From NCBI GenBank assembly GCA_012845835.1, contig JABAKD010000010.1:16221355-16285354 (forward strand): a stretch of DNA of 64,000 bases. The letters are read 5' to 3'. The notes below the pieces were generated by a model. That model had not been told where the DNA came from and searched no databases. It saw nothing but the letters and a program-made list of their open reading frames with translations. Origin of the DNA: Undaria pinnatifida (Eukaryota > Sar > Phaeophyceae > Laminariales > Alariaceae). Of this stretch, positions 1 to 37,600 are shown in pieces. Each line of letters starts with the position of its first letter. The first letter of the stretch is position 1. The position numbers and the translations under genes are program-made.

Positions 1-774
1 AAGGTTGATACAGAGGCTGTGAGAGGGCGTCGTAGGAGTAGTCGCGTTGCGCCGTTGCACTGGACCATGACCGTGAAGAGCCTTGGGCACGAGACCAGGC
101 AGCAGTGGATCCACACTCTTTTTTGTTTCCCGGTCCATGCGCACGTGAAACCTCTTTGGGCGCCAATATGTTATGATACCCGTACGTGCCTCGTACCACT
201 GGTACTTCCTGTATAACGCCGTTTTGTATGCTTGTATACCTGATCCGATCTGTACCCGGGGTACCGCTCACGTCAGATTTTTATTTCAGAAACCTTTAGT
301 TTACCTGGTACCTGGTACCTGGTATGACAGCATATACCACCAGGGACGTTGTGTATCGCAACACTCGATGAAAAATCGAGGAGCAGTGGGATTGCCTATG
401 CGCGATAAAACTTGAAGGCAAGAACCGGGGGGAAGGGACAACACCTGTGACCACGGCTTGTCCACAAGCTGGAAAGTTGATGCGTGAGAAAAAAAAAAAA
501 AAAAAATCGCATCACGCAAGTGTACCACCCGGGGGATGGCATATTTCAAATCCCCAAACTACCCGATTTATCACCCGGGGTACGTTGAATACCACACCCC
601 CTGCGGTGTCATGCCTCATACCAAGCACCTGGTAGTCGGTATGACACCCCCAAGATATCTTCTGACGTTCGAGCTGCTGTGAAACATGCTAATAATGTTT
701 ATGGGGTGTAAAACCCCCGAGAAATCGATGTACCCCCGTCGCATCGTATGACCTTTGCGAATGTAACAGGTCAG

Positions 775-3700
775 TCGCGCTTCCGTATACAAGCAACTGC
801 TCGAGAACGCCCTGCGGGCGTTGCTGGACCAAATCCCCCACCTCACCGAGGAACGCATGCTGCTTCTCCTCAACGATTCCTTCCGGTGAGGGAGCTAACG
901 AGCCAAACTGGCAACCCCGGCGCGAGACAAGCAGAGGCAAAACCTCGTCGCCGTTACTCGCGAACCGTAACAACGCCACCGCCATTACCAGAGTATAGCC
1001 GTTACCCTACACCATTTTCAAATTGCGCCCGTTTGAGCGCTGATTGTGAAGTATACATGGAACGAGGTGTGGAAGATTGAACGTGGGAAATCTGGGATTT
1101 GGGCAGCGGTATTGAATCAAAATATGTTGGAGGCATGTTTGGTTGGGTGATACAGGTTGGGTACAGCAGGTAGGCTGAGTGTGGGTTTGGTTACGTTAGT
1201 TGCACAAGGTTGAAAGCTTAAACCTGGTGACCCACCGCGCCCCAGGTACGCGACGCAGCCGGAACTCAAGAGCGTGCCGCTGAAGATCATCACCAGCATG
1301 TCAGCCGTTCCAGACAAGGTGGGGGGAGGGGGGCTCGTATGTGTTGAAATATTACAAACCTCATATATTGACAAGTGTTGATACTCTCTTTTTGTAAAAC
1401 AACCTTAAACGCCTCTCCGTTTAAGTATGTTATAATTTCTATAAAAATTGCAAGATTACTAGTTGCAGACGTGGCCCAACACGTTTTATTCTCGAACGTT
1501 AGTTGGTGTTTGTTTCTCAATAACTCAAAGGACTCCGAATTGAAGGGGGGATGCTGTCGCAACCTGCTGGTTGTGTTACAGCAGCAGCAGCTTCAGTATC
1601 ATCATCTGCAGCAGCCCTTCGACGGGCAGAATCATTTATTCTTCCACCAATGGGCAAATCGCGCCGAAGTAACCACTACGTACCATACCTCACCCGCGTG
1701 TCGCTTTTCGTCAACCATTGGGTCGCCCTTATTTATTGGTATCGCTTCATGCGGGAGAAAAACGTTCGAGATCCCTCGAAGCTGACCTTCTTTCAAAGCA
1801 CGTTTGTTTGGAAAAATTACTTCGAAATAAAGTGGGCAGTTTTTTTGTGGTAGTGAAGATTAACACAACTCGGGAACGAAGTCCTCTGCTCCGTCTCTGT
1901 TTCCATGGTAATCATAACCTAATCCATGCCCTTGCGCGATCTGATGGGGTTTTATCAACTCTGTTCGCGTCGAACATATGGAACGAGCCCCCCCCCCCCC
2001 CTCCCGACGTACTCCGTCCCGGCAGTGCGCGGGTGCGAGGCTCTATGATCTTAAGACTACGGCTATGCATGAAATGAGTACCCCCCCCCCCCCCAACCCC
2101 GCCCCGTTCCTCCTTACGTTCCCTTGGGAAAACGTTAACGTTCCATTCTCCGGTCACAGGTACTTGAGAAAATAATCGAGCTGCAGACGCACGAGCCGAG
2201 TCAGTTCGAGGAGCTAGGCTTGCCCCTTGCCATCAAGCGCCTTGCTTGGGAAAAAGACGCGACGCTGTTCGTAAGGATAGCGTCGCCCCACGCGAGCAAA
2301 TACATCTCCAGCGAGTACACGCCAAAGATGATCGTCGCGTCCCAGCAGGTATGTAGGTGGCGAGGCAGAGCAAGCAATGTCCAACGTTTGTGTCCTGATC
2401 CCCCCCCCCCCCCTTTCGTCTAACCTGGAGCTTTTGATGTCGGGGGCTGCTTCGGACACATGCTGCGGCAGAGGTGTACCAGTTCCTTTGTGATGGTTGA
2501 TGAGTCATCCCACGGTAGGGGTACAGAATATTCCGAGCATTTTCTGAGCTCCTAACACGAGGCGAACTCGATATCTCGCCCGAAGCATGACCTCGAAGGC
2601 ATTCGTTCGTGCAACCCGACCAACGTCATCTATGCGCTATTAGTAGCACTAGAACACATATACTCGTAGCACTATTTTGGTCACCGATAGTACCACGCTT
2701 GGGGGGCTCAACCAATCAGAACGGCAGAAACGTTTGGCCCAAGAAAGGGTAACCCCTGTTGCGGGATGACTCTCCATCGTTCAGAAACAGAATTAGCCTA
2801 ACCGCGTGCTGCCTCTACCGTATTGCGCGTGTTTGCGCAGTATCTGGTACAGCTGTGTAGCGACTCGAAGATGGCGAACGCTTCCTTTGACGTTTTATGT
2901 GCTCGCTAAATCGCGTCCCCTTAGAAAAGCTCTCGCTGCCCTTGACCAACGCCTGGGCCGTGTTTTGGATATTCATGTTGAAGGCCCCAACGGTCCAGAC
3001 TTTCCCTTGCAGGATGGTGGGTTTATATCCTAGGTGCGTTGACGCGTACTACGTTAGAGGCGCACTGGCTTTTTTTTTTTCGCCTTCTGAGGGTGGTGGC
3101 TTGAGAAGCTCCATATACTTGACCCGAAAACTGAGGTTTGAGAAAAACTGAAAGAGCAGCCCGATAAATAAAAAGCCATGGCCTACAATAGGTACACAAG
3201 TTCATGTTGCGAAACAAAAATTGACGTATTTCGACGATTCCTGGTTAAGAAGCCCCCCCGGCCATTCACATAATATTTGAGCCGAAAAAATGCTACCTCT
3301 GTCGTATGTAGCGCGCCTCCGCTGTTTTTCCGGAACAGCACAATACAGTGGGTACCTCGATTTAAGAGCGCCCCCGCGACAAGCCGAAACAAGCGCTCGT
3401 AACTGCACATTGCTCTTATCTGTGTTGGGAAATATATAGCTTTTAGTATGGTCGGGACGTGCCGATTTGACCGCTCTTAAGTTCCGAATGCTCTTATCCT
3501 GGAGGGGGAGGGGCGTACTCATTTGTTGCTTGCCTTATTCATCTGACCATTGACTGGGCGCTCTTTAACCGGGGTACCCACTTTAGTTTGTATGAAGCGA
3601 GTTCGACGCGTGTTGGCGATGGGGGTAGCATTTTTTTTCGGCCTGGCTTTTCCCTACTGTTGGGATTTCTCAACGTTTCTTAACAAGCTACCGCGTATAT

Positions 3701-6700
3701 TTGGAACTGCCGTTTGTGTCTTCTCGGCTAACATGCTACCGCTTATCACAGGAAATCCCGTTTGTGACTTCTCGGCTAACATGCTACCGCGTATCATTGG
3801 AAGTTCCGTTTGTGTGTCACGATATTTTGTAAAATCACAAGCTTCCCCTTCTTCGGGATGTGGTTGGCTTGAATTGAAATCCCGAGGGGGGGGGGGGCGG
3901 GTCGCAAAGTTGAGCAGAAGGGGAAAAACTCCTGACGACTAAAGAAAACTACGAAAAAAGAAAATTGCCACCAGCAACCGCCGCACAAGCAAGCAAGAAA
4001 ATCCGGCAAGCAGTGTGTAGCTTGGTCTATTTCAAATACGTCAGCTGCCAGTTCGATCATCTTAGTGGTCGATACTCATCTTTGCAAAGCTGCGTGATAC
4101 TCCGGTCGCTCGTTTTTACGGATGCGTTACTCTTTGAATATATGACTCCTGGATGCTGCGAGGGTCAACATGACAATTTTTATACCAAGGGCGATTTCGG
4201 TCCATAATCGTTCTGCGCACTGATCCTATATGGTGACCCGTCGTATGGAGAGGGAAAAAACTGAAACTCGTGTACACACCCACCTGGTATTTCGTCCAAC
4301 GAAACTAAGGTATCACGCGACCCGCATTAACCCCTTTAGAGCCCCAGAACCCCTCTCTATACTAGTTCCAAGCACTTTTCCCCCCAACGGGTTTCCAGTT
4401 ATAAAAGGTGTTCAGAATGTTTCGCGATGTTGCTCGTTGTATACCTATTTATATACGGTGGGATTAATCATCATTGTTTATCAAAAGTCAGTTTTGGGTG
4501 AAGTAGAGAGTGCCTTAACCCTTTTAGAGCCCCCAAAAAATCCTCCCTATACTACTTCCAAGTATTGTGTCCCCACAAACGGGTTTCCAATCGTGAAGGC
4601 GTCAAAATGAGGAACCTCAGAAAAAAATGGTTGTCACCTCCGTCATATCATAGCACGCGTCTTTCTCCCCATGGTAACCGCTACCAGGTACTCACTGTGA
4701 TGCGGAGCCATCTGTTCTCGGTCAAATGGGTTTCCTGGGTCGATCCTGTCCTTCCTTGCCACTGGACTCGTCTGCTGTCGAAAATTGCCTCTTCCGAGCT
4801 TTTATTGTTGCGCGACACAAACCGGGGAACATCGACCAGCGCAAAACTCACGAGCATGTTGTTGATTGAAACCAAACTCACACCGTTGCGAAAACACGTT
4901 TGTTGGCTTGGCCCACATCGTCCCATATTTTGTCCCCCTGAGATTCGCAAAGGCGTTTTGGTTACTCCCATCTCGTATCCCTCTATTTAATAGACTACCT
5001 GGCCAGGTAGATTCTTCGTATTGCCAGGTTTTTTCATTTTTCAATTGTTCGCTTTTTTCAATTGCGCGTGGTTGTCCGTCTGCGTGCATGCGCGCGTGCG
5101 TTGTATTTTCCACTTTTTGACTTTTCAGGTGAGGTTCTACAAGCACCTGGACACCATCAAGCGGCGAAAGCTTATGGGCCCCGAGCGAATCAACGCTCTG
5201 GCGGAGTGTACGGGAGGACGGCCCATTCTTATCGGGTAAGACCGTTTCAATGACCCGATGACGGAATATAATCGATATACCCTGGTAGTGATCAGTCATC
5301 CCTTTTTTTTTACGACCCCCGCCGAGAGCAGGCATTCGCCAGCAATATAAAGGCTGCTTGTTTTCTACCAGTCACGCACGTTACACCAGAGCACCGTTCG
5401 CTGTGATCTATTAATACAACAGAGTTAAATCCGCGTAGCAACAGCAACAGACAACAACCAAAGACGAACGAACGGCCAGAGCCACACGGCCGCTCTGCCA
5501 ATCACACCGTGTGGCTTTCCTGCCACGCCTTTCTCTCTCTTGCCTCCAACAGTCCCCCGGACGGGGGCGGCCTTCCTTATGCTGGCTTTGTCCATTGTCT
5601 TTTAAGGTGGAAAAGTGTATTTTGAGTCATCGTTGCCAATTATTAGTGTACATACAAATACCAGGTGCATATGTAGTGGTTTTCGCGTACAACACGAGCT
5701 CTACTGGTTGCTCCGCCTTCTCCTCCTGCTTGAACGAACAGTTTCCTGTCCAGCGACATCGCCGACAAGATCAAGGGCGAGTCGTCCCTCTCCAAGGCGG
5801 GGATGTGGGCCACTGTCCTCACCCCCGTCTCCTTAACCGCCTTATCGTCTCTGCGGATCCTGAAAGTACTCAATAAACCAACTGGAAATCTTTCCTATGC
5901 GTTGGTGTTGCACCCTTTGCTGGTTATCGCTAACAGCACACCGCTACTGTGCTGCTTGGTTGCTCCGCCTAACCTCACGCTTACAGTTATTATAACATGT
6001 GCGATGACGTCGCAGAAAAGGTTACGGACGAGTCCTCCCTCTCCAAGGCCGGGGATGTGCCCCCCCCTTGTCACCGCCATATCGTCTCCACAAACCTCAA
6101 AATCAATTCATTAGCGCAATTTTTACCCCCGTACCAGATGTCGATTGTCTTGGTTTCCACCTATTTATTTTGTTGTGGCTAACAGCATACCCACTCTGCT
6201 GGTTGGTATTCCCGCGTTTTCATACTTGAACAGGTTACCTGTGCTAGTGGGTTTGCCAACAGCTATTATCTAAAGCCGATTTTCCGGTATATACACCAGG
6301 TGCCAGCTAAATTCTTACTGTTTTTTGCCACATGACAGTACACCACTCTGCTGCTTTTTCTGGCGATTCTTGTTCCGTTGAACAGTTACCTGTGTGACGA
6401 CATTGCAGACAAGTTCAAGGACGAGTCTTCCCTCTCAAAGGCGGGGATGTGGGCCACCCTCCTCACCGACGTCCTCGTAACCGCCAGGGAGCGAGCGTAC
6501 GGGAGCATCGCCGACCAGTCCGTGGACCGCCTCTGCGCTCTTGCGTCGCGCCTGGACCTGGCCGTCAGGGAAGACGTATTCGGAGACGCCGCTGTTAGGG
6601 ATGTACAGCGGTGAGTAGATAGACTAGACGCATGCTGCAGTGAGGAGATGACGCGTGCTACGATAGAGGTTTCTCACTTTCGGAGGTTAAGACATGTCCT

Positions 6701-9700
6701 TCTTAACCCAAAAACTGATTTGGACAGAAACAACGAATGAATGGTGGTGGCAGGGGGTGGTATAAAACCAGTATAAAAGGACAACGACGACTTTCGTCGT
6801 TAATATTGCTGACAAGCCCATCACAACACCACAAAACGCAGAAGAACACGGAACACAAACAGACGTCGTGTAGAAGCAACGAAAAGCAGAACCTAATTAC
6901 AACGACCTCAACGCAACACAGCAGTATAGCACAGCAGTATAGGCACATTATGTAAGATATACCATCATCTACGACCACATACTTTTCTTCTGTCTGTAGC
7001 TCTGTAGCCGGATGGTATATATGATGCCATATTGTTGTTGTTTGCGTGCGAGGGTGTAGTTCGTCACGCCGTTTGATTTGAATCGCAGCGGTTTGAATTT
7101 TATGGTTTTGTAAGGACGAGGAGGGTTTTTTGGGAAGGAATTTTTTTGTCCGCAGCCCAGGGCACAACGAAGTGAAATGTTTGTGTGTTGTGTTTTTTTT
7201 TTTTTTTGTTGTCCCGCATCGTGATGTAGCAGGATCGAACAGCAGAGGCGCAAACGTTCCAGCGCATGCACCACCAGCGCTGGGTTGGCAGGCCAGCCGA
7301 AGGGTGCTTGTATGCTACTACTAGCAGTGTAGAGTGTGTTGGTGTTCGTTCGTGTGTGTGTCCCAAAATGCACCCACGAGGTGGTTGTTTGCGTGCGAGG
7401 GTGTATTAATAGTTCGTCACGCCGTTTGATTTGAATCGCAGCCGTTTGAATTTTATGGGTTTGTAAGGACGAGGAGGGTTTTTTGGGAAGGAATTTTTTT
7501 GTCCGCAGCCCAGGGCACAACGAAGTGAAATGTTTGTGTGTTGTGTTGTTGTTTTTTTTGTTGTCCCGCATCGTGATGTAGCAGGATCGAACAGCAGAGG
7601 CGCAAACGTTCCAGCGCATGCACCACCAGCGCTGGGTTGGCAGGCCAGCCGAAGGGTGCTTGTATGCTACTACTAGCAGTGTAGAGTGTGTTGGTGTTCG
7701 TGTGTGTGTCCCAAAATGCACCCACGAGGTGGTTGTTTGCGTGCGAGGGTGTAGTTCGTCACGCCGTTTGATTTGAATCGCAGCCGTTTGAATTTTATGG
7801 TTTTGTAAGGACGAGGAGGGTTTTTTGGGAAGGGATTTTTTTGTCCGCAGCCCAGGGCACAACGAAGTGAAATGTTTGTGTGTTGTGTTGTTGTTTTTTT
7901 TGTTGTCCCGCATCCCGCATCGTGATGTAGCAGGATCGAACAGCAGAGGCGCAAACGTTCAAGCGCATGCACCACCAGCGCTGGGTTGGCAGGCCAGCCG
8001 AAGGGTGCTTGTATGCTACTACTAGCAGTGTAGAGTGTGTTGGTGTTCGTGTGTGTGTCCCAAAATGCACCCACGAGGTGGTTGTTTGCGTGCGAGGGTG
8101 TAGTTCGTCACGCCGTTTAATTTGAATCGCAGCCGTTTGAATTTTATGGTTTTGTAAGGACGAGGAGGGTTTTTTGGGAAGGGATTTTTTTGTCCGCAGC
8201 CCAGGGCACAACGAAGTGAAATGTTTGTGTGTTGTGTTGTTGTTTTTTTTGTTGTCCCGCATCGTGATGTAGCAGGATCGAACAGCAGAGGCGCAAACGT
8301 TCAAGCGCATGCACCACCAGCGCTGGGTTGGCAGGCCAGCCGAAGGGTGCTTGTATGCTACTACTAGCAGTGTAGAGTGTGTTGGTGTTCGTGTGTGTGT
8401 CCCAGAATGCACCACCCCCACTGGGTTGGCAGGGCAGCCGAACGGTGCTTGGATGCTAGTAGCAGTGTCGGGGGGGGGCGACGCGCCCCCCCCCGAACCC
8501 CCCCCCCCGGGCCCGACACAGTGTGCGTTGGAAGGACCCTCACCAGTGTGCGTTCGAAAAAGTACATGGAAAAACTATAGTATGTATTTTTAACAAGAAC
8601 ACAAAAAAAACTGCTACAAGCTTGAAAAATGCCATGGCCTAGGTACACAACGAGAATCTCCAGGCAAAAAAAAATGGCCTATTATTATTTTTTTGTTTTC
8701 CGACGATTTTGGGTTAAGGAGCCCCGTCATTTCATCAGAAAAAAAACATTTTTTTCAGACGAAAAAGTGGACACCGTAGACCAAGGGCACGGTATGGTAT
8801 TTGTAGGGGGGATGTTATAATGATGTTATGATGGTGTTACGATGTACCGGTGCCCCCTATTTTCCCACGAGTGACTCTTGAACTTCACTTGACAAGAATA
8901 CTCTCAAGGCGGTTGCGTTTGGCGCAGCGTAGCTAACCGTTCCATTGCGGATTTTTTATCGCAAAAATTAAGACAGAAGGAAAGCTCAAGACCACGACCG
9001 CGGAGGCACGGGGGGGTCACTCGCGCGAGTGACCCCGAGCCATTGCGGAAACCAACCCCGAGAGTGACCCTCTTTTACCGTAGCCTTGCCCTGTACCTCG
9101 ATTTAAGAGCGCCGAAGATAAGAGCATTCAGGACTTGACTGTTTTAGAGCTGCGTCCACGCTTTTGGCAACGAAGGTCTTGGAAAAGGTACGGGATAACG
9201 TTGGTCAGCTCTAAAAGGGGGCTTGAGAACGGTCGAATGAGAATCAGCATGTTCCGCCTGTTTTATTTACGAAAATCAATCTGTTGCCTCCTGCGGACAA
9301 GATCAATGTGTAGTTAAGATTGCGCTTGTTTTGGGCTTTTGTCACCGGGAATGCTCGTACGTCGGGGTAACCGCTGCTGTAGTAGTACCTGGTATCGAAT
9401 ATGGTGGCGCCATCCACCGTCGGCATGCCTAAGCGGCCGGGGGGAGGGGGGAGGGGGGAGGGGGGGAGGGGGGGGGAGGGGGGAGGGGGGAGCGGGGGAG
9501 GGGGGAGCGGGGGAGGGGGGGAGGGGGGACGGGGGGAGGGGGGGGGGGGAAGGGGGGAGGGGGGAGGGGGGAGGGGGGGATGGGGGCACTTTTTGGATGA
9601 AATAATGACTGAACGACGAGGCGTCTCACAACCCCAAAGCTGTCGGAAGAACGAAATATGTGTACCTGGGCCACGGGTTTTGTACGTCGAATTGCTAGAG

Positions 9701-12700
9701 CTGTGAGTCGGCACGACTTAAGTCACCAACTAGTTACTAGTGGGGCTAATAGTTAGTCGTTTTACGGAAGTGCCGACTATCCGATTTATTGGGTTTCCAT
9801 ACTCGGAGGAAGGACTGTTTAATTCGGAGTGCGTTTTTTCCTTTTTCGGGAGGGTCCCCCTCGGCCGGGGGGGGCTGTTATGGCTTGCTTCGCTCTCCTG
9901 ACTTAAGTCGGAAAGTGGGCTTGCTGATCATAAGGTGGTTTCCCCGGCCGACTTGCGGATTAAAGTCACTTGGTTGGCTAACGGCACCTACCGATTAGTT
10001 TTTGGTCGTGAAATACTGCCGACTCACAACTCTACGAATTGCGCTTTCAGTTTGCTACAATAAAAAAAGCAAACGTTTTTGTGGGTGAGGTATATAGTAG
10101 AATGTTTTATCATGCCACCACCCTCAGAAGGAAAATACAATGGTTGGAGTATCTCTACCGCGTTGACCTTTTTTGTTTCAGTAATTTACCACCGAAGCGT
10201 ATTTGCATCATAAGAAACGTCCCGTGTTCGCCACTTGCCTCAAGAATAATGCCGTACCGAATCTTGTTTTATGCCAGGAAGAAGGATACCGAAGCTTACT
10301 TTTGTGCCAGAAAAGAAGGATAAGCCTCGTGTGTCTCGTTAGCCTCTGATTCGCTAACCGGATGGTGATTTTTTTTAGTAAGTATGTCCGTTGTCCGCGT
10401 TGACCTCTGATTGGTTGAGCTGCGTTCGATCCCCGAACAACCCCCCTGCCTTTTTTTCTCCCCGTCGATTTTTTGTTGTGTTTGTTTTCACCTGGCGCAG
10501 TCTGTTCCGCGAGGCTACAGGGATCGTGGAAGGGCAGCAGGAGGTAGCCAAGGGGACCAAGCGGGCAGCCGCTCTCGATAAGGCCAAGGCAGAGGACGAG
10601 AGCACCAAGCTCCGTAAGGTGGATGCGGATGGTATTTATTGTATTTTTTTATTTTCCGGCGTTCTATCGTAGGTCCGATAATTTTCTTGGGTTTGTCAAG
10701 GTTACGATTAGACTTGGAGTTAGGGCTCAACCTCGAGTGCACTTTCAATGATTTTTTCGTAGCTGGGCCAAGGACATATGCTAAGTTCAATCTATTTTGT
10801 CTTAGCTGGGCCAAGGACATACTGTAAATCTGCATCCTTGTATGTTTTGCCTTCTAAGGGCGGTTACTTGAAGAGCTCTATGATACACCTCACCCAAGAA
10901 TAATTTTGAGCAAACAGAAAGTACACCCCGATTGATATACTCATGGCCTAGGTACACAAAAAAAACACATTGCGAAACAAGAACGGCATTCCGACGATTT
11001 TGGGTTAAGGTTAACGCCTTTACAACTGGAAACCCTTTCTTTTTTCATATTTATTTGAAATTAGTATAGGGAGAGGTTTGGGGGCTCTCAAGGGGTTGAG
11101 GTGGGTTAAGAAGTGCCGTCTTTCAGAAAAAAAAAAGCCAAAAAAGTGATACATCTATCGTAGCATGCTTCCAAGGTCTGTACAGCCCTCAACCAACCTA
11201 CCAACAACAGCGGACCAACCAACCAACCAACCAACTGACCACAATGGTCTTCGTGCTCCGCTTTTCCGGTCACTCTCGCACAACGTTCCTGCGCGTCCCT
11301 TTTTGTAAACGAGCGCCACCGCCTCCGCCGCCGCCGCCGCTGCCGCCACCACCGCGTTCTTCCTCTTGACCCTGTAGCAATCACCATGCAAATTATCCCG
11401 CACTTAGTCCAAGTAAGTTGCCCCGAAAAACGACGGTGGGTTTCTGAGAGGGTTTGCTGCGTTGCCCGGCAACCTCAGACGTTGAAGTCGACGTGGTCGC
11501 TGGGTGTCCAGGACGGATAGCAATACTCGTCGTGGGTTCAAGAAACCAACCAACCACAAATCTACCACACACCCAACCAACCAACCAAATCAACAACCAT
11601 ATCACCAACCAGATATGAACCCGCGCGCAAACATTCATCAGATATATCAACCAACCAACCAACCAACCAACCAACCGATCAACCAACCAACGCGTTGTCT
11701 GGTAACCTCAGACGCTGAAGTCGGCGTGGTCGGCGGTATCGAAGATGGACACCAACAGCTGGTTCAAGGAGGCGGTGACGGAGGCCATCGCGGTGGGCTA
11801 CCACAAGGTCGTCAAGGTGCCGATGGACCTCGGTACCATCCTAAAAAAGGTGCGGCATACTCTTCGATGTTCATAGTTTTTTTTCTGTTAGTATATACAC
11901 GGAAGTCTCGACTAATGGTAGCACCAAGTATATGCACTATTGATTTATGCACGAAGTCTAAACTCGAAGTAGTGTCAAGTAGCATTTCATTTGTTTTACT
12001 AGTTTGTCGTACCAGGCGTCATATTGAGTAGTTTTTGTTAAGAGTTTTCTAACACTTGAGCTTAGTCTACTTCGTGTGCCCGAAGACGGAAAATATTTAA
12101 TTTGAAGTATAAAATATTAAAAAGCCAATATTTGTGGGCATTATTTGTTGCATATTTTGTTGAACGCCCGAAGACGGAAAAACGGCAGAAACTGTTTATT
12201 GTGTGAATGGTTTTACAATTCATGTTAAAAGTTTCACGGTGAGCGACCACAGGTCGTCAAGGTGCCCATGGACCTCGGTATCGTCCTCAAAAAGGTGCGG
12301 CATGCTTGTTACTCGTACTCGTAATGGTTTTAACAACGAGCACTCGAAGCCAGAGTAGTGTTCTCTAAAACGTTCCAATATAGTTCAACTATATACCATG
12401 GTACTTGGTATGGTTGAAACTAAATGGCGTCAAGTACCTTGTATTGTAATACTTCGAAGTGTGATTTAAACTGCGGATAGTGTTGGATTACAATAAGAAC
12501 TCTGACTAGAGGACGTTTTGTTTTGTTCGCCTTCCCCTATCCCTACTTTCTAGATTAAAGGCGGAGGGTACCCCAGCTTCGGCGATTTCGACCGCGACCT
12601 CAAACTCATGTGGGAGAATTGCCGCTTGTACAACTCTGAGGTGAGTTGCCCCAAAAAATATCTGAGTCCAAGGCCTTTTTTCCGTCGCTTGTGCGACTCT

Positions 12701-15700
12701 GAAGTGAGTTAATCCTTTAAGAACTGCATCCACGTTTTTGGGGACAAAACCGCTTGAAATTAGCGTGGAATTTATTTTTGCAGTTCTAAACCGGTTACCG
12801 AAAAAAGGGCCTTCTGCAAATATATTCGAGTACCCCATGTTTCGCCGCTTGTGCAACGCTGACGTGAGTTAACGAAAAAACACGCCTTCTGCGAATGTGT
12901 TCGAAAACCCCATATTTCGCTGCTTGTACGCTCGTATAACTTTGAGGCGAGTTCACAAAAAACACGCCTCCTACAAATGCAGCTTGCAATGCTGAGTATC
13001 GACCGCTTAGTCGGTCGAACGCACAGCTGATGTCATTTGCAGTACCTCCGTAAAATGTGTGCGACTACCCCAGTTGATGGTCAAGATACAAATCAGTGCG
13101 CAGAATGGTTACGGGCCGAAACCGCCATCGGTAAGATTGTCCTGTTGACCTTGGCAGCACCCGGGAGAGTCATACATCTTCAAAGAGTGATACATGTGTA
13201 ATAACGCGCGGCCGGAATATCACGCAGCTTGCGAAGATAAGCACCGACCATTAAATTGGTCGAACTCACAGCTGACGCATTTGAAATAATTTAATAAAAT
13301 ATCGACCCCCAACGGCACCTAGCACGAGCACGAGGACACGGTCCGGGTGCAGTGGTAGTGCTCCCTACATATGTGCACTATAGAGGGAAATACTGGCATC
13401 ATAGCGGCGACCGGCACTAATCCGCATACTGCCACTACTGGGTGTTCCCATATGTGCCAAGCGATTTGACATGCACTTTCGCGGGCAACCGACAATATAG
13501 AGGAACCTCTACCATGGTCGCAATATTGTGACGACGCCGAAACAACACTTGAGAAATATACTCCACGCTAGTTCCAAGTAGTTCGTCTAAAAGACCGAAA
13601 ATGGTGGTGTAGTTCTTGAGGGGTTCAGCTTGTGTCGGCGCTAGGTAACCGCGGTTTTTCGTGCGAGAAGCATGATACCGCGTGCCCGGTGCCGTGTTTT
13701 TGACGGTATGCGAGTTGAGATCTCTGCCCTGCCCCAAGGGCATACGGCACCCGCGATGTATATGTGACGCGACACGTACCTCGGCAGTTTCGCTGGCGGT
13801 GCCCTACGTCTCCCGTTTTTTGTCCACTCTATTTACTACGAGTACATAGCTCTTCCCTCCCAAAAAATATCAAGTAGGCAGGCTGTTATGACCTCCGACC
13901 GCCGACCACCGGCGCACACAAAGTTGACGACAGTGACAACTATCCTGCTGAGCGCGTTTCTAGCGACAGCTAAGCTATCGTAGAGCTATCGTAAGGATAC
14001 TGGGTACCACGCGTAATGTAGAGGATGCCCTTCTTGCTCCTATCCACTCCTTGCATGTTACGCCCCTCTCCTTTTCCCCGTACTACCACGAAATCCACCG
14101 GCAACGGCCACGGCCTTTCCAAGTGCGCGCAAGGTTCGTACTACACTTGCGGATGCGCCGCGGCCCCGCCCCCCCCCGACGTACAGACACGCCTAGGTCA
14201 GGCAAGGTATATGACCAGAAACCTGCCCCTCTTGGCCTGGAGGGGCTGGTTCACACCAGTCCAGGTGCTTGATAAACAGATTGTATTTTATTTAAACATC
14301 ACACGTGATCATCTCGTATCCCCGGATCCCCATTCAGTATCCTTAAGGACGAGTGGAACCCCCTGGTACCATAGGATCCTTTTCACACGCTCATCGAACC
14401 CTCAACGGGCAATCACCTCAAGGCTGGTCAGCTATCGTCACTTACCACCAATCATGCTCACTCTCTGGTGCTTTACGGTCCACAGACGTCGCCCCCCCCC
14501 CTAACCACGAACTTCCCTGCCCTCACTTCCTTTCGTATTGTATAAGGTACCTGGTATGGTACAAATTAGTTATACGGCGTCATGGCGCCCTTTGCTGAAA
14601 AGGCGACGATTTGTCGTCGACCCTCCTGCTTCGAAACAATACTAGGACATCATGTACCAGACCCAAGCGGCGTCTAATGCTGTTTTTTTGTTTTTTTTAT
14701 CTTGTCCGTGCCTGCTTTTGCCTGCGTGGGGCTCTTTTTGTCTACCCGTGTCGCGCGTCCTTGCTGCTGTATCGCTTGGCGCAGGGCTCCTCCTTCCACC
14801 AGGAGGCTTTGAGGCTCGAGCGAGAGTGGTCTAAAATTTCGACATCTTTTGAGGACACCCTACGCTACGGCCAGGTAATGACGTACAGTGGCACACCCTT
14901 TTCAAGACCATCCTGTTTTTCGACTCTTTGAGAGATAAGACCAGGTAAATCGGCTTGCCTCGACAAAAGTCTACTTGGAACTACTGTAGTATGGGACAAT
15001 TTTTGTAGCAAGATACCAGGCAGACCATCGTAGAGATAAGGTCACCTCAAGTGGCTTGTCACGCGGTGGTCTTAAAGTGGGTAATACCCTTATCGTACTG
15101 CACCCACGTTTTTGGGGACAAACTACCTGGAATTAGCGTAGGATCCTTTTTTTTTCGGTAGTATGTTGGTTCTGTGCTACCTTTCTGTGTATGTGTCTGC
15201 CTCTGGTTTTTGCCTCTGCATCTCTGCCTGTCTCTCTCGTTGGTCCTCTCACTCTTGGCGTTGCCTGTCTGTTTGTCTGTCCACCTGCCTGTTTCTCTAC
15301 CCACCTGCCTGTTTGTCTGTCCACCCGCCTGTTTGTCCACCTGCCTGCCTATCTGTCTACCTGCCTGTCTACTTGCGTGTCTGTCTGTCCGTCTGCCTGT
15401 CTGTCTATCTGCCTGTCTCTGATGTGTGTCCGATCGCGTTCGCGGTGTTACATTTTTTGTCGATGTCCACACCTGCGTGTTTCGTCGGCGTCCATTCCCT
15501 TGTTCTCCCACGTACCAACCATATGTTACTCGTGACTCTATCACCTTCCCCACCCCTCCCTCGCACGCCTTTTCTTCATCATCCGTTATCCTCCCCCTCC
15601 CCGTTCGATTTTCATCGCCGAATACATCCAAGAGCCGCCCCGGTCAAAGCCTATCCACTTCAGCCACCGGCAGCAACCACAAGCGCAAGGGCAGTTCTTC

Positions 15701-17483
15701 TTCGCAAGACGACCTGCGAGGCGGTGGCAACAGCGGCAGCAGCAGCGGCGGCGGCGCCCCGCTAACTACGATGGCCCCTGCCACCCAGCTGGACGGTCAA
15801 GGCCTCGGTCGCCGCGTGGGACTAGCCGCGATGCTCCTGTCGGAGCCCTTTGTGGCCAAGCTCATGTATCGACACGCGTCGGAGCGCGTCCCGGAGGCCT
15901 GCCGCGGGGGGGAGACACTTCCGCGCAACCACCTTACCTACGCGCCGCTGATGCAACTTCTCGAGCTCGGCGATGCCGCCCGCGCAATGTTCCGCGCGGG
16001 AAGCTTCGGGGTCCGCGCGGTCGAGGAGAACCTCACGAGGGCCGTGCTTCCTTGCGTTGTGGCGCTGCACGCTCGCGCGGAGGGCGCCATCGCCCGCCGT
16101 GCCGACGCACCGGACCGGGCAGACGGGCCGAACGGGGCAAGCGGACCAGAAGCACCGGTCGGAGCTGCAGCGGCGGCAGCAGCGGCAGCGGTGGCAGCGG
16201 TGGCAGCGGCGGCGGCAGCGGCGAAGAAACAGAGGGCGGCACGAGAGGACGCGGAAGACGCGGCGGCTGCGCCGCCGCAGGACTGGAAGACCTGGTTCAA
16301 GGAGTTTCCCGCGGTTCGCCGCGTGGTTTGCACCATGCTCTGCCGCGCTTTGGTGAGGAGCGGCGACGAGGCGGCCGTGCTGATGATGCCGGCGGCGCGC
16401 GCGGCCGTGAGGAAGATGGCAGACGAGTTGTGGCTGTGGGCGAGTCTGGCCGAGCTAGTGCAGAAGAGCGCGACGATGGTCTCGAAGGCGGACGGCGACG
16501 CGAAAAAAGCTGGGCGGGTTCTCCAACCCGAGGTGTTTCCCCCCCCCGTAGTTTTGGCTGTTTCAGTTGAGATGGCGGTGTGTCGTGTGTTTTGCTTCCG
16601 TTCGTGCGTGGACCAGTGGGTCCGCCTCCCCTCCCCTCCCCTCCTTTCTGCGAGTAGTGCTTTTGATACACGCAGTCATACCCCCTCCGCCCCTTCCTTC
16701 TTACCCTCCTTACCCTCCCCCCCCCCCTCTCCGTCGTTCTTACCCCTTCCTTCTCCGATGCCGCCCGCTCCTAACAACGCCCGAAGACGTTGAGGAGCAT
16801 CCTGGAGCTGTTCTTGCGCGGCCTGGAATCGGCGACTGTATCCGATGCGGTGTTTTCCAAGGCGCTTAGTCTAGTGGCCAACCTCCTACAGCTGGCGTCT
16901 CGCTCATCACCAGCGCCAGAACCATCATCATCGTCAGCGGTGGGGGTAGCAGCAAAGCCGGTACCGGCGAAGCGTGTTGGAGGTAAGCCGATAGGGATCC
17001 CCCGCGCGGCGCTTGAAGAACTGGTCGACAAGGCTGCCGCTAGGGCGGTACGACCTCCCCGGAAACCCCGAACGGAGGCGGAGGAGGAGCGGGTGAAGGG
17101 GGAGTTCGAGCGCGTGTTTTCCCTAGCTCCCGAGTGGAAAAATAAGCTCCACGAGAAACGGAAAGAAGCAGCCGCGGCAACGGCAGCGGCGGCGGAGAAA
17201 AGGAAAGAAGCTGCGATAGCAGCGGCAGCGGCAGCGAGAAGGGAGGCTTCGGCGCGAGCTGGGGCGGGGGCCAAGGTTGCGGGGGCCAGAGTGGGGAATG
17301 GGAGGGGGGGAAGTGGGAGTGGGAAGGGGAGCGGAGGGGGGGGGGGGGGGGGCACGGCCCGCGAGGAGCTTGTCGATCAAGGGACCCAAGAGTTTTTCGA
17401 TAAAGGGGCCGAAGAGGAAGGGCGGGGAGGGGGGATATGCCGGCGGTTCCGAGCCCGCTCCGAAAAAGCGGAGTCGGGGGTGA
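775..17483 (+). CDS. NELF-B/COBRA1-like protein with an internal bromodomain (5'-partial, 11 exons)
   Basis: Phase-consistent exons: 775-885, 1246-1318, 2160-2348, 5129-5235, 6386-6610, 10501-10618, 11712-11849, 12554-12640, 14785-14874, 15633-16532 and 16787-17483. The first ten give 679 codons without a stop. Residues 1-124 (ending in an SSEYTP stretch) and the block after the bromodomain (SEPF..., ETLPRNH, then a helical part rich in Leu and Ala) follow, in order, the helical repeats of NELF-B as I remember that family; human NELF-B has about 580 residues. NELF-B is a nuclear scaffold of the complex that pauses RNA polymerase II. A bromodomain (residues 275-379) sits between the two halves. 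The C-terminus is Lys/Ala-rich and nuclear-looking. The first exon begins in mid-codon, so the N-terminus is missing. The bromodomain is certain; the NELF-B assignment rests on recalled motifs and spacing, not a computed alignment. Confidence 0.72.
3352..3575 (-). mobile_element. MITE copy, GATTTAAGAGCGCC terminal inverted repeat family
   Basis: Begins GTACCTCGATTTAAGAGCGCC and ends GGGCGCTCTTTAACCGGGGTAC. The interior matches the cleaner copy at 35371-35534 in inverse orientation (CTTTTAGTAT, GACCGCTCTTAAG, GCACATTGCTCTTA). It carries an extra insert of about 60 bp (GGGGGAGGGGCGTACTCATT...) that also occurs at about 19030 and 37010. Confidence 0.7.
4325..4600 (+). mobile_element. Two copies of a roughly 90-bp MITE (ACGGGTTTCCAGT family)
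   Basis: Copies at about 4325-4410 and 4511-4600 share ACCCCTTTAGAGCCCC, CCCTATACTA, TTCCAAG and ACGGGTTTCCA. Further copies: about 11015-11102 (reverse), 41945-42036 and 62055-62146. The ends ACCCCTTT and AAAGGGGT form short inverted repeats in the best copy (62055). Confidence 0.7.
5690..6385 (+). repeat. Decayed tandem copies of the intron/exon segment preceding exon 6386-6610
   Basis: Three degenerate copies of the acceptor region and 5' half of exon 6386-6610 lie upstream of it. The first, from 5742, keeps a usable acceptor and in-frame coding (DIAD, ESSLSKAGMWAT). The second, from about 5987, is damaged (CDD, DESSLSKAG, then frameshift). The third, near 6225, retains only the GAACAG-TTACCTGTG junction. 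The upstream intron text (CTGCTGGTTG and similar) is repeated with each, at roughly 145-255 bp spacing. None keeps the 3' half of the exon or a donor, so they are pseudo-exons. Confidence 0.75.
7035..8430. repeat. Four-copy satellite, about 348-bp unit
   Basis: Units begin near 7035, 7383, 7731 and 8080 with GGTTGTTTGCGTGCGAGG and are almost identical apart from short T-run and CCCGCAT indels. The array lies in the intron between exons 6386-6610 and 10501-10618. The unit is close to 116 codons, so the - strand shows long repeating open frames. I read these as a by-product of the repeat, not a gene. The last unit ends in a diverged copy followed by a C/G-rich tract. Confidence 0.92.
9095..9345 (+). 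mobile_element. Diverged copy of the 35371 MITE with another small MITE inside
   Basis: The left part (ACCTCGATTTAAGAGCGCC, ATAAGAGCATTCAGGACTT) and the right part (GACAAGATCAATGTGTAG, TTGCGCTTGTTTTGGG) match the 35371 element. Between them, 9141-9217 has its own inverted ends (TTTTAGAGCTG and CAGCTCTAAAA) and resembles segments at 12715-12790 and about 15090-15150. It therefore appears to be a nested insertion. Confidence 0.6.
9433..9590 (+). repeat. G-rich GGGGGA tract, quadruplex-prone
   Basis: About 155 bases of runs of four to ten G separated by single A or short AGC spacers, in the same intron as the 348-bp satellite. On the transcribed RNA this strand would be G-rich and could form stacked quadruplexes. 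Confidence 0.9.
11464..11520 (+). pseudogene. Decayed copy of the bromodomain exon start
   Basis: CAACCTCAG followed by codons for TLKSTWS closely repeats the acceptor and first codons of exon 11712-11849, then runs into a stop (GGATAG). The preceding bases GCGTTG also match. An AACC-rich array separates the two copies, so it may be a tandem duplication split by microsatellite growth. Confidence 0.7.
11515..11695. repeat. AACC/CCAA microsatellite cluster
   Basis: Interrupted runs of CCAA tetramers between the decayed and the functional copy of the bromodomain exon. A second, shorter CCAA run lies at about 11200-11235. Confidence 0.9.
12253..12294 (+). pseudogene. In-frame 14-codon copy of the bromodomain PMDLG segment (possible cassette exon)
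   Basis: This stretch encodes VVKVPMDLGIVLKK, nearly the last 14 codons of exon 11712-11849, with the same GTGCGGCATG donor context. Loss of one A turned ACCACAAGG into ACCACAGG and so created an AG acceptor. Length (42 nt) and phase allow splicing without a frameshift, but inclusion would duplicate the ZA loop and probably disrupt the fold. Transcript data would be needed to tell a cassette exon from a dead copy. Confidence 0.65.
12641..12965 (+). repeat. Tandem copies of the donor end of bromodomain exon 12554-12640
   Basis: The exon end CGCTTGTACAACTCTGAG plus GTGAGTT recurs three times in decayed form, at about 12683, 12843 and 12919. Each is followed by an AAAAAA-rich tract and a GCCTTCTGCAAAT-like stretch. 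This is a local tandem array seeded by the exon-intron junction; the copies keep GTGAGTT or GCGAGTT near-donors. Confidence 0.7.
15225..15420 (+). repeat. CTGT/CTGC pyrimidine-rich repeat
   Basis: Interrupted TGTCTGTCTGCC repeats in the intron upstream of exon 15633-16532. With the C/T-rich stretch at 15540-15610 they form a long pyrimidine tract that could strengthen the acceptor at 15631-15632. Confidence 0.85.
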
Positions 17484-18862: not shown

Positions 18863-19389
18863 TGGGGTCCTTTGCTCCTTATATTCCGGTTCGGGTGCAT
18901 ACCCTACCCTTGCAGCCCGAGCTGCTTCGCGTGGACAATGCTGCAATCGTCACATGATACCAACAACTTACGACGCACGCCTTTTCCCTCTGGAATCCCG
19001 CAGGAGTTCCTATGTTTGTTGGGGCGGGGCGGGGGGGGAGAGGGGGGCATACTCATTTGTCGCTTGCCTTAAGTCATTCGACCATTGGCCACGCATCCCT
19101 TTCGAGACGGAGCACCGTTCTTACTCCTAATAAGAGACACCTCTAACGTTTGGGCGCTCAATACGCTTCTTCATTATATTACATGAAAACTGTTCGCTTA
19201 TCCTATCCCCGTCCTGTTTCGCCGTCTGTTGCCACCATTTATCTCGTGGGGGGGGGGCAGCAACGGCTCCAAGGAATCATAATAGTCTTATCAAAGAAAA
19301 CAGGCTCATAGAAGAGCCATCCCACGTTGCCAACTTCGTGTTTCGGGAATTCATTTTCTCTGCAACTGGGAGAGAACCACTATATTTGA

Positions 19390-19957
19390 AGGTTACTCCG
19401 TCAGGGAATGGGAAATTGAAGGAAAACAATTCGACATCAACAGCGCCAGCGATAGCAATGGTAGTGAACACGTAACCAACAAAAACAAGCACGACAACAA
19501 CAGCAGCGACAGGGACAAGTGGACCGTTGTCAATGAAATAGGGGATGGCGCCTGCTTAATTCGTTGCGTTGCTCGCAAAGTGCATGTGAACCCTGACAAA
19601 CACATCTTTACACGTCAGCAAATCCTACAACATATTCGTGATCACCTCCACGACCCAATACCCACATTGTCGTTCTACGACATCGCTTCAAACGGAATCC
19701 AAAGCGAATCTGTGACTACCCTTGGTCAGCCCGACACACTTTACGACTCAGTCGCTCACTACCTCAGCCTCATGTCCAACCCGTATGCCTTTGCCACGAA
19801 TATTGAAATTACCACCGCGAACCATCTGTTCAACATCAACATTAACGTCACATATACAGGCACATAACATCCGAGCACACCTCCTGCACCCAACTCGTGC
19901 AACGTCCTGTACGACCCCGCCGCCCAGCACTACAACACACTCCAATGCCACTGTTAA
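19390..19957 (+). pseudogene. OTU-family cysteine protease, interrupted by one in-frame stop
   Basis: An open frame from about 19390 reads WTVVNEIGDGACLIRCVARK. It contains the OTU catalytic box D-G-x-C (DGAC), followed by an HIRDHL-like helix, a Y-x(n)-M segment and a helical NEI-like part (ATNIEITTANHLFNININVTY). After a TAA at 19865-19867 the same frame continues to YDPAAQHYNTL, which supplies the catalytic His of the HY motif, and ends at TAA 19955-19957. OTU proteases cleave ubiquitin; such domains also occur in transposon proteins. The N-terminal side is Asn/Lys/Asp-rich. With D, C and H all present and only one stop, this is a young pseudogene, a readthrough product or a sequencing error. 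No start codon was chosen. Confidence 0.65.
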
Positions 19958-34614: not shown

Positions 34615-37600
34615 GCGGCAACAACGTCACTGTTAGCAGTGGAGGCGGCGGCGGTAGCGGCAGAAGCGGCGCAACAACTGCTGGTGGCGTACCCCCACCA
34701 CCGCATTGTTCTGAGCAGTTGCCCTATTCGACATCAGCCGCAGCAGCAGCAGCTGCAACGACATCTACAGGGACAACAGCTACAGCGGCAGCAGCGACAG
34801 CAACATCAGCTTCGGCAGCAGCAACTACGGCGACAGCTGTTAACAGGAGCCTTCAGGAGCCGAGCTCACCCGCCACCACCACCAACCCAGGTGCCCCTTC
34901 TCCGGACGTCGACATCGCCCCGCCGGCCGAAGACCCCACCACCACCACTACCACCACCAACAGTACCACTAACACCAACACCACCACCACCACCAACAAC
35001 AACGACGATGACGACGAAGATGACGACGAAAAGTATGGCGGTCGAGTTCGAGTGCTGTGTCGATTTCGGCGCTTCTTGGACGCAGAATCGGAATGGGCCG
35101 CACGCAGAATAGGCTGGCTCAATTTCGACGGCAGCGGTGCAGGTGGCGGCGGCGGCGGCGGGGAGACAGGAGAGCCGGGCGAGGGACTGGACATGGTCGC
35201 CGTCCGTGTGGGAGGCGTCTGGAGTAGGCGGAAGTTCGACAGGGTTTTTAGGCCTGGAGTTGATCAGGGGGAGGTGAGGCTGCAGCGACATGACGACATG
35301 CACGACTCGCCAATACGATTTCTTCCGTGTGGTGTGATGCGCGTGCGTGATGATGCATACCGCCGTGGATACCCCGATTTAAGAGCGCCCAGGATAAGAG
35401 CGCTCAGGACTTAAGAGCGGTCAAATCGGCATGCCCTGCCTGTACTAAAAGCTATATTTCCCACTACAGACAAGAGCAATGTGTAGGTAAGAGCGCTTGT
35501 TTCGGCTTGGCACGGGGCGCTCTTAAATCGGGGTGCCCACTGGTCAGTTGTAATGATTTTTTTTTCAACCTTTTCGGAGCTTTGATGTATAGCAGCTGGA
35601 ATATGGGACTGCTGTCTGTGCTGCTCATGTTCGGATTCCTTTCGTGGAGTATTCACTGCAGTACAGCAGAAGGTAAAAATACGCATGCACGATATATATG
35701 GTTACATGTTACGCGTACAGTGCCGTTTTTCTTTCTAATTGTACCATTCGGGTGCGGTGAACCTCGAAACTCACAACTCCCTATGATAGCCCGCAAGTTA
35801 GCAGCGTGGTAGCGTGAACACAATCAATACGACAGCAATACAGCAGTACGAAGCTCCTAAGATTGCAAAACCGCCGTCGTTCTTTGATATGATATATTAT
35901 TCTGACCATTGACCGGTACCAGGTATATACCCTACCGCTCTACGTATCTAGACTCGTAGACTACTCGTATCTAGCCCCTTCCTTCGTTTTAGAAATGTTT
36001 ACATATGTACAGCAAAATCGGACCGGCGTTCCAAAATATTAATATTGCCATGCTCGCACGGTATTACATGTGATGCCTGTTATCCTGGTTATCATAACGT
36101 TGCTACTATAGTCGTAGCATTCTCCTCCGACTTACTCCGCCCCACTTATCTCTTTCTCCATCTCTCTTTCCCTTCCCCTCTCTGTCTCTCTATCTGTCTC
36201 TCTCCCTCTCCCTGGCCCTCTCCCTCTCCCCTTCTCTCTCTTTCCCCCCCTCTTTCCTTCTCTCTGTATCTCTATCTCCCTCTGTCCCCGCTTTCCCCTC
36301 GTCTTCTCTCTATGCGTTTGGGCTGACTCCACTGAAAAACGAAAACTTCGACTTTTCACACTGCGTCAGGTCTACGAGCAGGTAGAGCGCGTCGCCCACG
36401 GTGTAGCTCAAGGCTTCAACGGCACCATCTTCGCCTATGGCCAAACAGGCTCCGGCAAGACCTTCACCATGGGAGGCTCCGCTTCCACCATCCCACCTTC
36501 CCCTCCCCGCCCCCCCCCTCCCCCTCCCCAAAACTCCAACTCCAGCGAACCTTGGAACCCCATCGCCGCAGAACCGACGTCACCACCGCTACCACCACCA
36601 GTATCACCTCCACAGCAGCAACCGACAGTTTCAGAGCCGCCTCCCTTGTCCCCTGCCACTCTAAGAATGCCTCCGCCGCCGCTTCCGGGGAAGTCGGGGC
36701 TGCGACGACCGGCAACCACTACGGCTTCGGGCGCGGGCGCACTTGCACCGGCGCTTGGGTCCGAGGCGGGGGTGATTCCGAGGGCTGTGGCTACGGTCTT
36801 GGCAGATGCGAGCGCGAGGAGGGAGCAGGGGTGGGAGTTTGTCTTGACGGCTACGTATGTGGAGATTTATAACGAGCGGATACGCGACCTGCTGTCCCCC
36901 GCCAGCGACAACTTGAAGGTGAGGGTTGGGGGGAGCGGGGAGGGTGTACTCATCGCCATGCATGGCGCGCAGTCCTTAGGGCCAAAGCCTCACACCCCGA
37001 CAACGGGGAGGGGAGGGGGCGGGCTTACTGTACTCATTTATTGCTTGCCTTAAGTCATTTGACCATTGACCACCATGCATCCCTTTCGAGACGGAGCACC
37101 GTCCCTGCTCCTAGTAGAGACACAAACACCTCCAACGTGTGGGAGCTCATATCGTTTCTTCCATGTACTTAACAAACGCTTTGCTTATCTTATCTCCTTC
37201 GTGCTATTTCCTTTGTGTTTGGCCGTCTGTGGCTACCATCTATCTCTCAAGATAGCGATTGCAGGGGAGGGGGGGTACTCGTTGTCATGCGTAGCCGTAG
37301 TCCTTTAAGACCATGGACCCATGCGTCCTCACAAAGCTGGGACGGAGCACGTCGGGTTTTCACCGACCAGGCAGACCTTACTTTCGAGACGGAGCACAGC
37401 TCCTACTCCTAGTAGACACACCTCCAACTGTTCGGCGCTCTCTCCGTGTTTGCGACTCGTTCCGTAATATTGTTGCTAATATGATCCCCTTACTGTTTTC
37501 CCTTTTACTGGCCTGTCTTCTAGGGCTGTATGCTCTAGCGTTGGTCGTCTCTCGCGTGGCTTGTTTTGTAGAGCGCTCTCTGGGCACCTTTGTGGGTGCG

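Follow-up and report, generated by a model that had tools for sequence, protein, structure and literature searches.

The window analysed here is a stretch of 64,000 nucleotides from the brown alga Undaria pinnatifida (contig JABAKD010000010.1; G000:C2:16221355-16285354 in a 511-Mb genome of 68 contigs). On its + strand lies a gene that encodes both parts of a NELF-B (COBRA1) scaffold with a bromodomain between them. In animals, NELF-B contributes to retaining RNA polymerase shortly after initiation; bromodomains are a domain type that binds acetylated histones. Eleven exons in the window, from 770 to 17483, have GT-AG borders and consistent phases, and their joints agree with those of the orthologues. 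The eleven phase-compatible exons proposed by the sequence-only reading are thus upheld, while its start at 775 had to be corrected to 770 and one further exon added. This first coding exon, E1, occupies -328 to -2, on the 5' side of the window (window base 1 is counted as 1 and the preceding base as 0). It joins in phase, with a gtaagg donor at phase 0, and encodes MKRGAPSSGR... to FLDVLG; the MKRG start is common to P0003 and P0004, two of the orthologues.

The N part of NELF-B is encoded by E2 (770-885; VSRASVYKQLLENALRALLDQIPHL...), E3 (1246-1318; YATQPELKSVPLKIITSMSAVPDK), E4 (2160-2348; VLEKIIELQTHEPSQFEELGLPLAIKRLAWE...), E5 (5129-5235; VRFYKHLDTIKRRKLMGPERINALAECTGGRPILIG) and E6 (6386-6610; YLCDDIADK... 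DVQR), the last of which reaches almost to the insertion point. E7 (10501-10618) holds the end of the N part (LFREATG) and the first linker. The bromodomain is divided among E8 (11712-11849; TLKSAW... PMDLGTILKK, with the pocket Tyr within GYHK), E9 (12554-12640; IKGGGYPSFGDFDRDLKLMWENCRLYN), which holds the acetyl-lysine Asn, and E10 (14785-14874; GSSFHQEALRLEREWSKISTSFEDTLRYGQ), which forms the last helix; each of the three has a length divisible by 3 and phase 0-0. E11 (15633-16532) encodes the second linker, the middle of NELF-B (GLGRRVGLAAMLLSEPF... ETLPRNH) and the C part, and E12 (16787-17483) encodes the end of the C part and a basic tail, terminating in a stop without a donor. The motifs from which the sequence-only reading had named NELF-B are present, ELKSVPLKIITSM in E3 being followed by SEPF and ETLPRNH (E11). 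The G+C content is 0.64 in the in-window exons versus 0.49 in the intervening introns. Joined, the exons encode a protein of about 1,000 residues, the tail of which is not exactly defined owing to a frame change at 17 consecutive G in E12. Two candidate exons were rejected by comparison with the orthologues: a spurious 35-base exon at 11378 in our draft model, and one at 2841 (YLVQLCSDS...), which was dropped as the orthologues join E4 straight to E5.

The NELF-B identity of the flanks was examined with the COBRA1 family (PF06209, model length 348, Pfam cut-off 22 bits). The corrected full product matches it in two stretches with 34.5 bits (E 1.5e-8). Taken alone, the N part scores 17.3 bits (model 2-86) and the C part 21.0 bits (model 192-276), both under the cut-off. 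When the bromodomain, the linkers and the low-complexity loops are removed, COBRA1 becomes one stretch covering model positions 2-277 of 348 with 51.5 bits (E 9.9e-14). Since the removed loops lie outside the COBRA1 stretch, the gain in bits stems from closing the insertion. A single stretch after cutting is what is expected for an insertion inside a domain. The sequence-only reading would have been refuted by flanks that do not match COBRA1, and this test came out in favour of NELF-B. In the PDB, the 60 of 395 matches listed for the full draft product are all of bromodomain type, with no NELF-B among them, and the bromodomain was therefore cut out for the NELF-B search. A profile of five sequences without the insert, two of them N part only, gave seven PDB matches at E <= 10; the best six are all NELF-B (6.4e-11 to 2.3e-9) and the seventh, at 0.83, is a chance match. 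The second stretch of this alignment spans the cut. With the N part alone, all six PDB matches at the same threshold are NELF-B (best 1.6e-4). Scanned singly at E <= 0.01, 17 homologues showed COBRA1 in 14 cases, Bromodomain in 6 and no other family. We regard the architecture and the NELF-B homology, both as the sequence-only reading had described them, as nearly certain.

The inserted Bromodomain (PF00439, model length 84, cut-off 21.7 bits) reaches 65.6 bits in the corrected product (E 3.9e-18, model 2-82 of 84). The insert comprises 193 model residues, namely a linker of 30, the bromodomain of 107 and a second linker of 56. A predicted acetyl-lysine pocket is present with its key residues, Y415 (the ZA-loop Tyr) and N458 (the Asn that had already been noticed; model numbering). 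Both are kept in 7/7 sequences, that is, in the window and in 6/6 orthologues compared. The predicted structure has the four-helix bromodomain fold and matches known bromodomains.

A search of 5.8 billion proteins at E <= 0.001 was made with the draft product, in which the extra 35 bases were still included and E8 lacked its 5' part. It returned eight matches. Five are orthologues, of which P0001 is from a EukProt source and the other four are from named brown algae; the remaining three proteins have the bromodomain only in their Pfam line. P0001 is 65% identical across 94% of the query and contains, without interruption, the NELF-B N part, the bromodomain and the C part. The same holds for P0002 (Ectocarpus siliculosus), except that it begins within the N part, while P0011 (E. 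fasciculatus) starts at the end of the N part, includes the bromodomain and reaches into the middle part. The N part and the bromodomain are joined in P0003 (Hapterophycus) and P0004 (Ectocarpus sp.), the bromodomain and the C part in P0005. Our exon joints match P0001 fully and P0002-P0005 where these extend. At the level of sequence, the fusion is thus conserved in other brown algae (Ectocarpus and Hapterophycus); this fits the stramenopile placing in the sequence-only reading, as all the named relatives (Ectocarpus, Hapterophycus or Discosporangium) are brown algae. A wider search, to which human NELF-B fragments and Discosporangium rows were added, gave 26 matches, of which one is the protein of the window itself, the named ones are all brown-algal and none is an animal NELF-B; an insertion outside the brown algae therefore lies beyond the reach of these protein searches. 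Discosporangium, like Hapterophycus and Ectocarpus, belongs to the Phaeophyceae, within which it branched off early; its partial protein P0010 (354 aa) stops just past the insertion point and is uninformative on the bromodomain.

The cut falls between human NELF-B residues ~292 and 293, counted on the PDB profile alignment with an uncertainty of a few residues. Human NELF-B is divided by crosslinks into modules 85-291, 291-438 (perhaps a hinge) and 438-519, and its N-terminal region binds NELF-AC, according to Vos et al. 2016 (PMC4940160). As the cut at ~292 coincides with a boundary of that paper, the bromodomain would lie at the border of the N-terminal and middle modules, where the scaffold could bear an extra domain.

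When P0001 was searched against the whole genome, 47 of 74 candidates were scored and 34 matched at E <= 1. Fourteen are at this locus, including one intronic copy of an exon. Among the 20 elsewhere, three have E < 0.01, all starting in the bromodomain and one continuing into the linker, whereas no match to NELF-B or tail parts is better than E 0.055. No second NELF-B was found in this search, which a highly diverged copy could escape, and the COBRA1 family gave no match in the genome (one candidate scored), single exons being too weak for such a search. Of the NELF partners considered by the sequence-only reading, an exon of NELF-C/D was located, whereas the search for NELF-A, like its control, gave no match. 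A single NELF-C/D (TH1) exon lies at G000:C29:11590964-11591182 (L003 1447-1770, - strand). The genome search gives it 34 bits; by hmmscan, where the cut-off is 24, it reaches 37.6 bits. Its best seven PDB matches are all NELF-C/D (4.6e-8 to 9.4e-5), and the eighth, at 0.004, is a designed repeat protein. This exon likely belongs to the partner gene of the algal NELF-B.

The introns of the gene contain decayed partial copies of neighbouring exons, of E6 at 5736-5841 (88/106 identical) and 5995-6076 (65/82), and of E8 at 11459-11499 (36/41) and 12234-12306 (65/74). In the last, 42 bases of open frame with the PMDLG motif lie between preserved AG and GT borders and could be an extra exon. In the E6-E7 intron, a 349-base tandem repeat of four copies (96% matches) occupies 7037-8413, and a G-rich array of GGGGGGA-type units is found at 9439-9586. 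Elsewhere in the window, an open frame at 36118-37053 contains stretches of a kinesin motor domain (Pfam 1.2e-25). Another, at 19286-19867, matches an OTU-like cysteine protease above the cut-off (7.5e-6) and perhaps, as a guess, belongs to a mobile element.

The reading that we favour, and hold to be rather probable as a whole, is a brown-algal NELF-B gene with an inserted bromodomain cassette (three phase 0-0 exons and linkers), which would anchor the NELF core to acetylated promoters. Taken by itself, a role in a NELF-like complex is very probable; promoter anchoring through acetyl-lysine is a prediction with about an even chance. The two NELF-B halves would form one joint fold on either side of the insert, with NELF-C/D as their partner. 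The bromodomain would protrude on its linkers and bind acetylated histone tails near the start site. The NELF core would thereby be held at, or tuned by, acetylated promoters and slow the early polymerase, and the effect at active genes could be either stronger pausing or aided release. The acetyl marks H3K9ac, H3K14ac and H3K27ac have their maxima at the start sites of Ectocarpus genes and track expression (PMC7784034).

Several observations weigh against this reading. The AlphaFold model of the whole protein (17 rows) is weak and helical, with a mean predicted local distance difference test (pLDDT) score of 53; an earlier model from 5 rows had 41. Foldseek found nothing at E <= 0.001 for the model, its best match (0.036) being a bromodomain, so that the HEAT-like fold of the NELF-B scaffold does not emerge from the structural comparison. 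The structures listed by Foldseek and VIA (50 rows each) are all bromodomains; NELF-B is not among these listed matches, which is no evidence against a NELF-B fold. P0001 alone has 20.8 bits for COBRA1, slightly below the cut-off. Human K278 forms crosslinks with both NELF-A and NELF-C (PMC4940160); it precedes the insertion point by about 14 residues, and the insert is therefore not far from a partner surface. A genome search with NELF-A_N (PF23553) was without match, as was the control genome. E12 changes frame at the 17-G run (17336-17352), with the stop at 17483 in the +1 frame; the end in this frame, SIKGPK...KKRSRG, looks by eye like the C-termini of the orthologues. The run could be an assembly slip, a polymorphism or a small intron, with an unmodelled intron or a slip the likely causes. 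The annotation of Ectocarpus sp. CCAP 1310/34 divides the gene between two proteins of a single contig, P0009 (N part) and P0005. P0005 begins at the bromodomain with an ATG, to which an in-frame ATG in E8 of the window corresponds in position. Finally, the relatives come from other genomes, but their gene models are possibly not mutually independent.

Among the alternatives, the one that survives best keeps the fusion in the NELF complex but lets the bromodomain read a non-histone acetyl-lysine (on the polymerase, DSIF or NELF itself) or serve as a spacer. Bromodomains with non-histone partners are known, and histone binding is here a prediction. Acetyl marks are, however, abundant at Ectocarpus start sites, and a spacer would not need the pocket Tyr and Asn, yet both are kept in all seven sequences; we consider this alternative rather unlikely. 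Less likely again is a NELF-B homologue by descent that has lost its pausing role and taken another chromatin job in brown algae. It would fit the distant sequence (human NELF-B fragments are 25% identical to P0001) and the unmatched NELF-A profile, for which the control was equally silent, and we have encountered no demonstration of focal pausing in brown algae. Against it, the genome search found no other NELF-B, and a NELF-C/D exon is retained. Moreover, Chivu et al. report that pausing indexes are higher where a species has NELF-B and NELF-C/D than where NELF is absent. Two transcripts, with a bromodomain protein read from inside an ordinary NELF-B gene, are suggested by the split CCAP 1310/34 annotation and the shared ATG but are most improbable, for in P0001, P0002 and P0011 the NELF-B N part, the bromodomain and the part that follows it are continuous, all exons share one strand and matching phases, even the first linker is 40-60% identical, and P0005 itself still links the bromodomain to the C part.

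If the favoured reading of a NELF-B that anchors the NELF core to acetylated promoters holds, a single protein may couple the pausing of polymerase to chromatin marks. According to Chivu et al., the later animal parts of NELF are NELF-E and the HDAg-like domain of NELF-A. We tentatively suggest, as a reading less likely than not, that brown algae, a further lineage of complex multicellularity, have rebuilt NELF: the old NELF-B/C core may have gained an acetyl-lysine reader instead of the later animal parts, so that promoter acetylation sets pausing, with a possible splice switch at E8-E10. Because these three exons are all phase 0-0, their skipping would yield an in-frame, reader-less NELF-B. 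A NELF-B with a conserved internal reader in an independently multicellular lineage allows a direct connection of promoter acetylation with early elongation to be tested in a laboratory model, Ectocarpus, and bears on how pausing came to be regulated.

Among the open-licence papers listed by our searches on the subject, we found no description of a NELF-B/bromodomain fusion. The main text of Chivu et al. mentions no bromodomain, stramenopile, Ectocarpus or algae, and that of a 2026 paper on brown-algal chromatin no bromodomain, NELF or pausing. The word NELF is absent from the available parts of two papers that name bromodomain and Ectocarpus, and in the kelp literature, as far as the accessible excerpts extend, NELF occurs as a Gene Ontology term in one methylation analysis. 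Among the closest known proteins is the orthologue P0002 of Ectocarpus siliculosus, which has the identical fusion. Its name is 'conserved unknown protein'; UniRef calls it 'Bromo domain-containing protein', after the bromodomain only. Its stored Pfam line already has both domains; the domain pair is thus visible in databases, while the NELF-B identity is absent from the names.

A comparison with known bromodomains shows likeness in sequence to BRD4 (1.2e-15), CECR2 (2.4e-14) and BRD9 (about 5e-12; BRD9/BRD7 type), as well as to the BRD1/BRPF type (Peregrin, about 2e-9) and polybromo (2.6e-32 summed over six copies). The predicted fold and the pocket Tyr and Asn are also shared, whereas the WPF shelf is SWF, MWF or KWF in the algal proteins (by eye). 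The bromodomains of BRD4, CECR2, BRD9/BRD7, BRD1/BRPF and polybromo sit in remodellers, acetyltransferase complexes or BET (bromodomain and extra-terminal) proteins, while the algal one lies inside a NELF subunit. To our knowledge, no animal NELF subunit itself reads histone marks. Human NELF-B (PDB 8jj6, 7ycx, 6gml) and the algal protein share both scaffold halves in order, with COBRA1 above the Pfam cut-off and a PDB profile match of 6.4e-11. The human protein is continuous at the insertion point, in contrast to the algal one, which has 193 residues there and in addition a basic tail.
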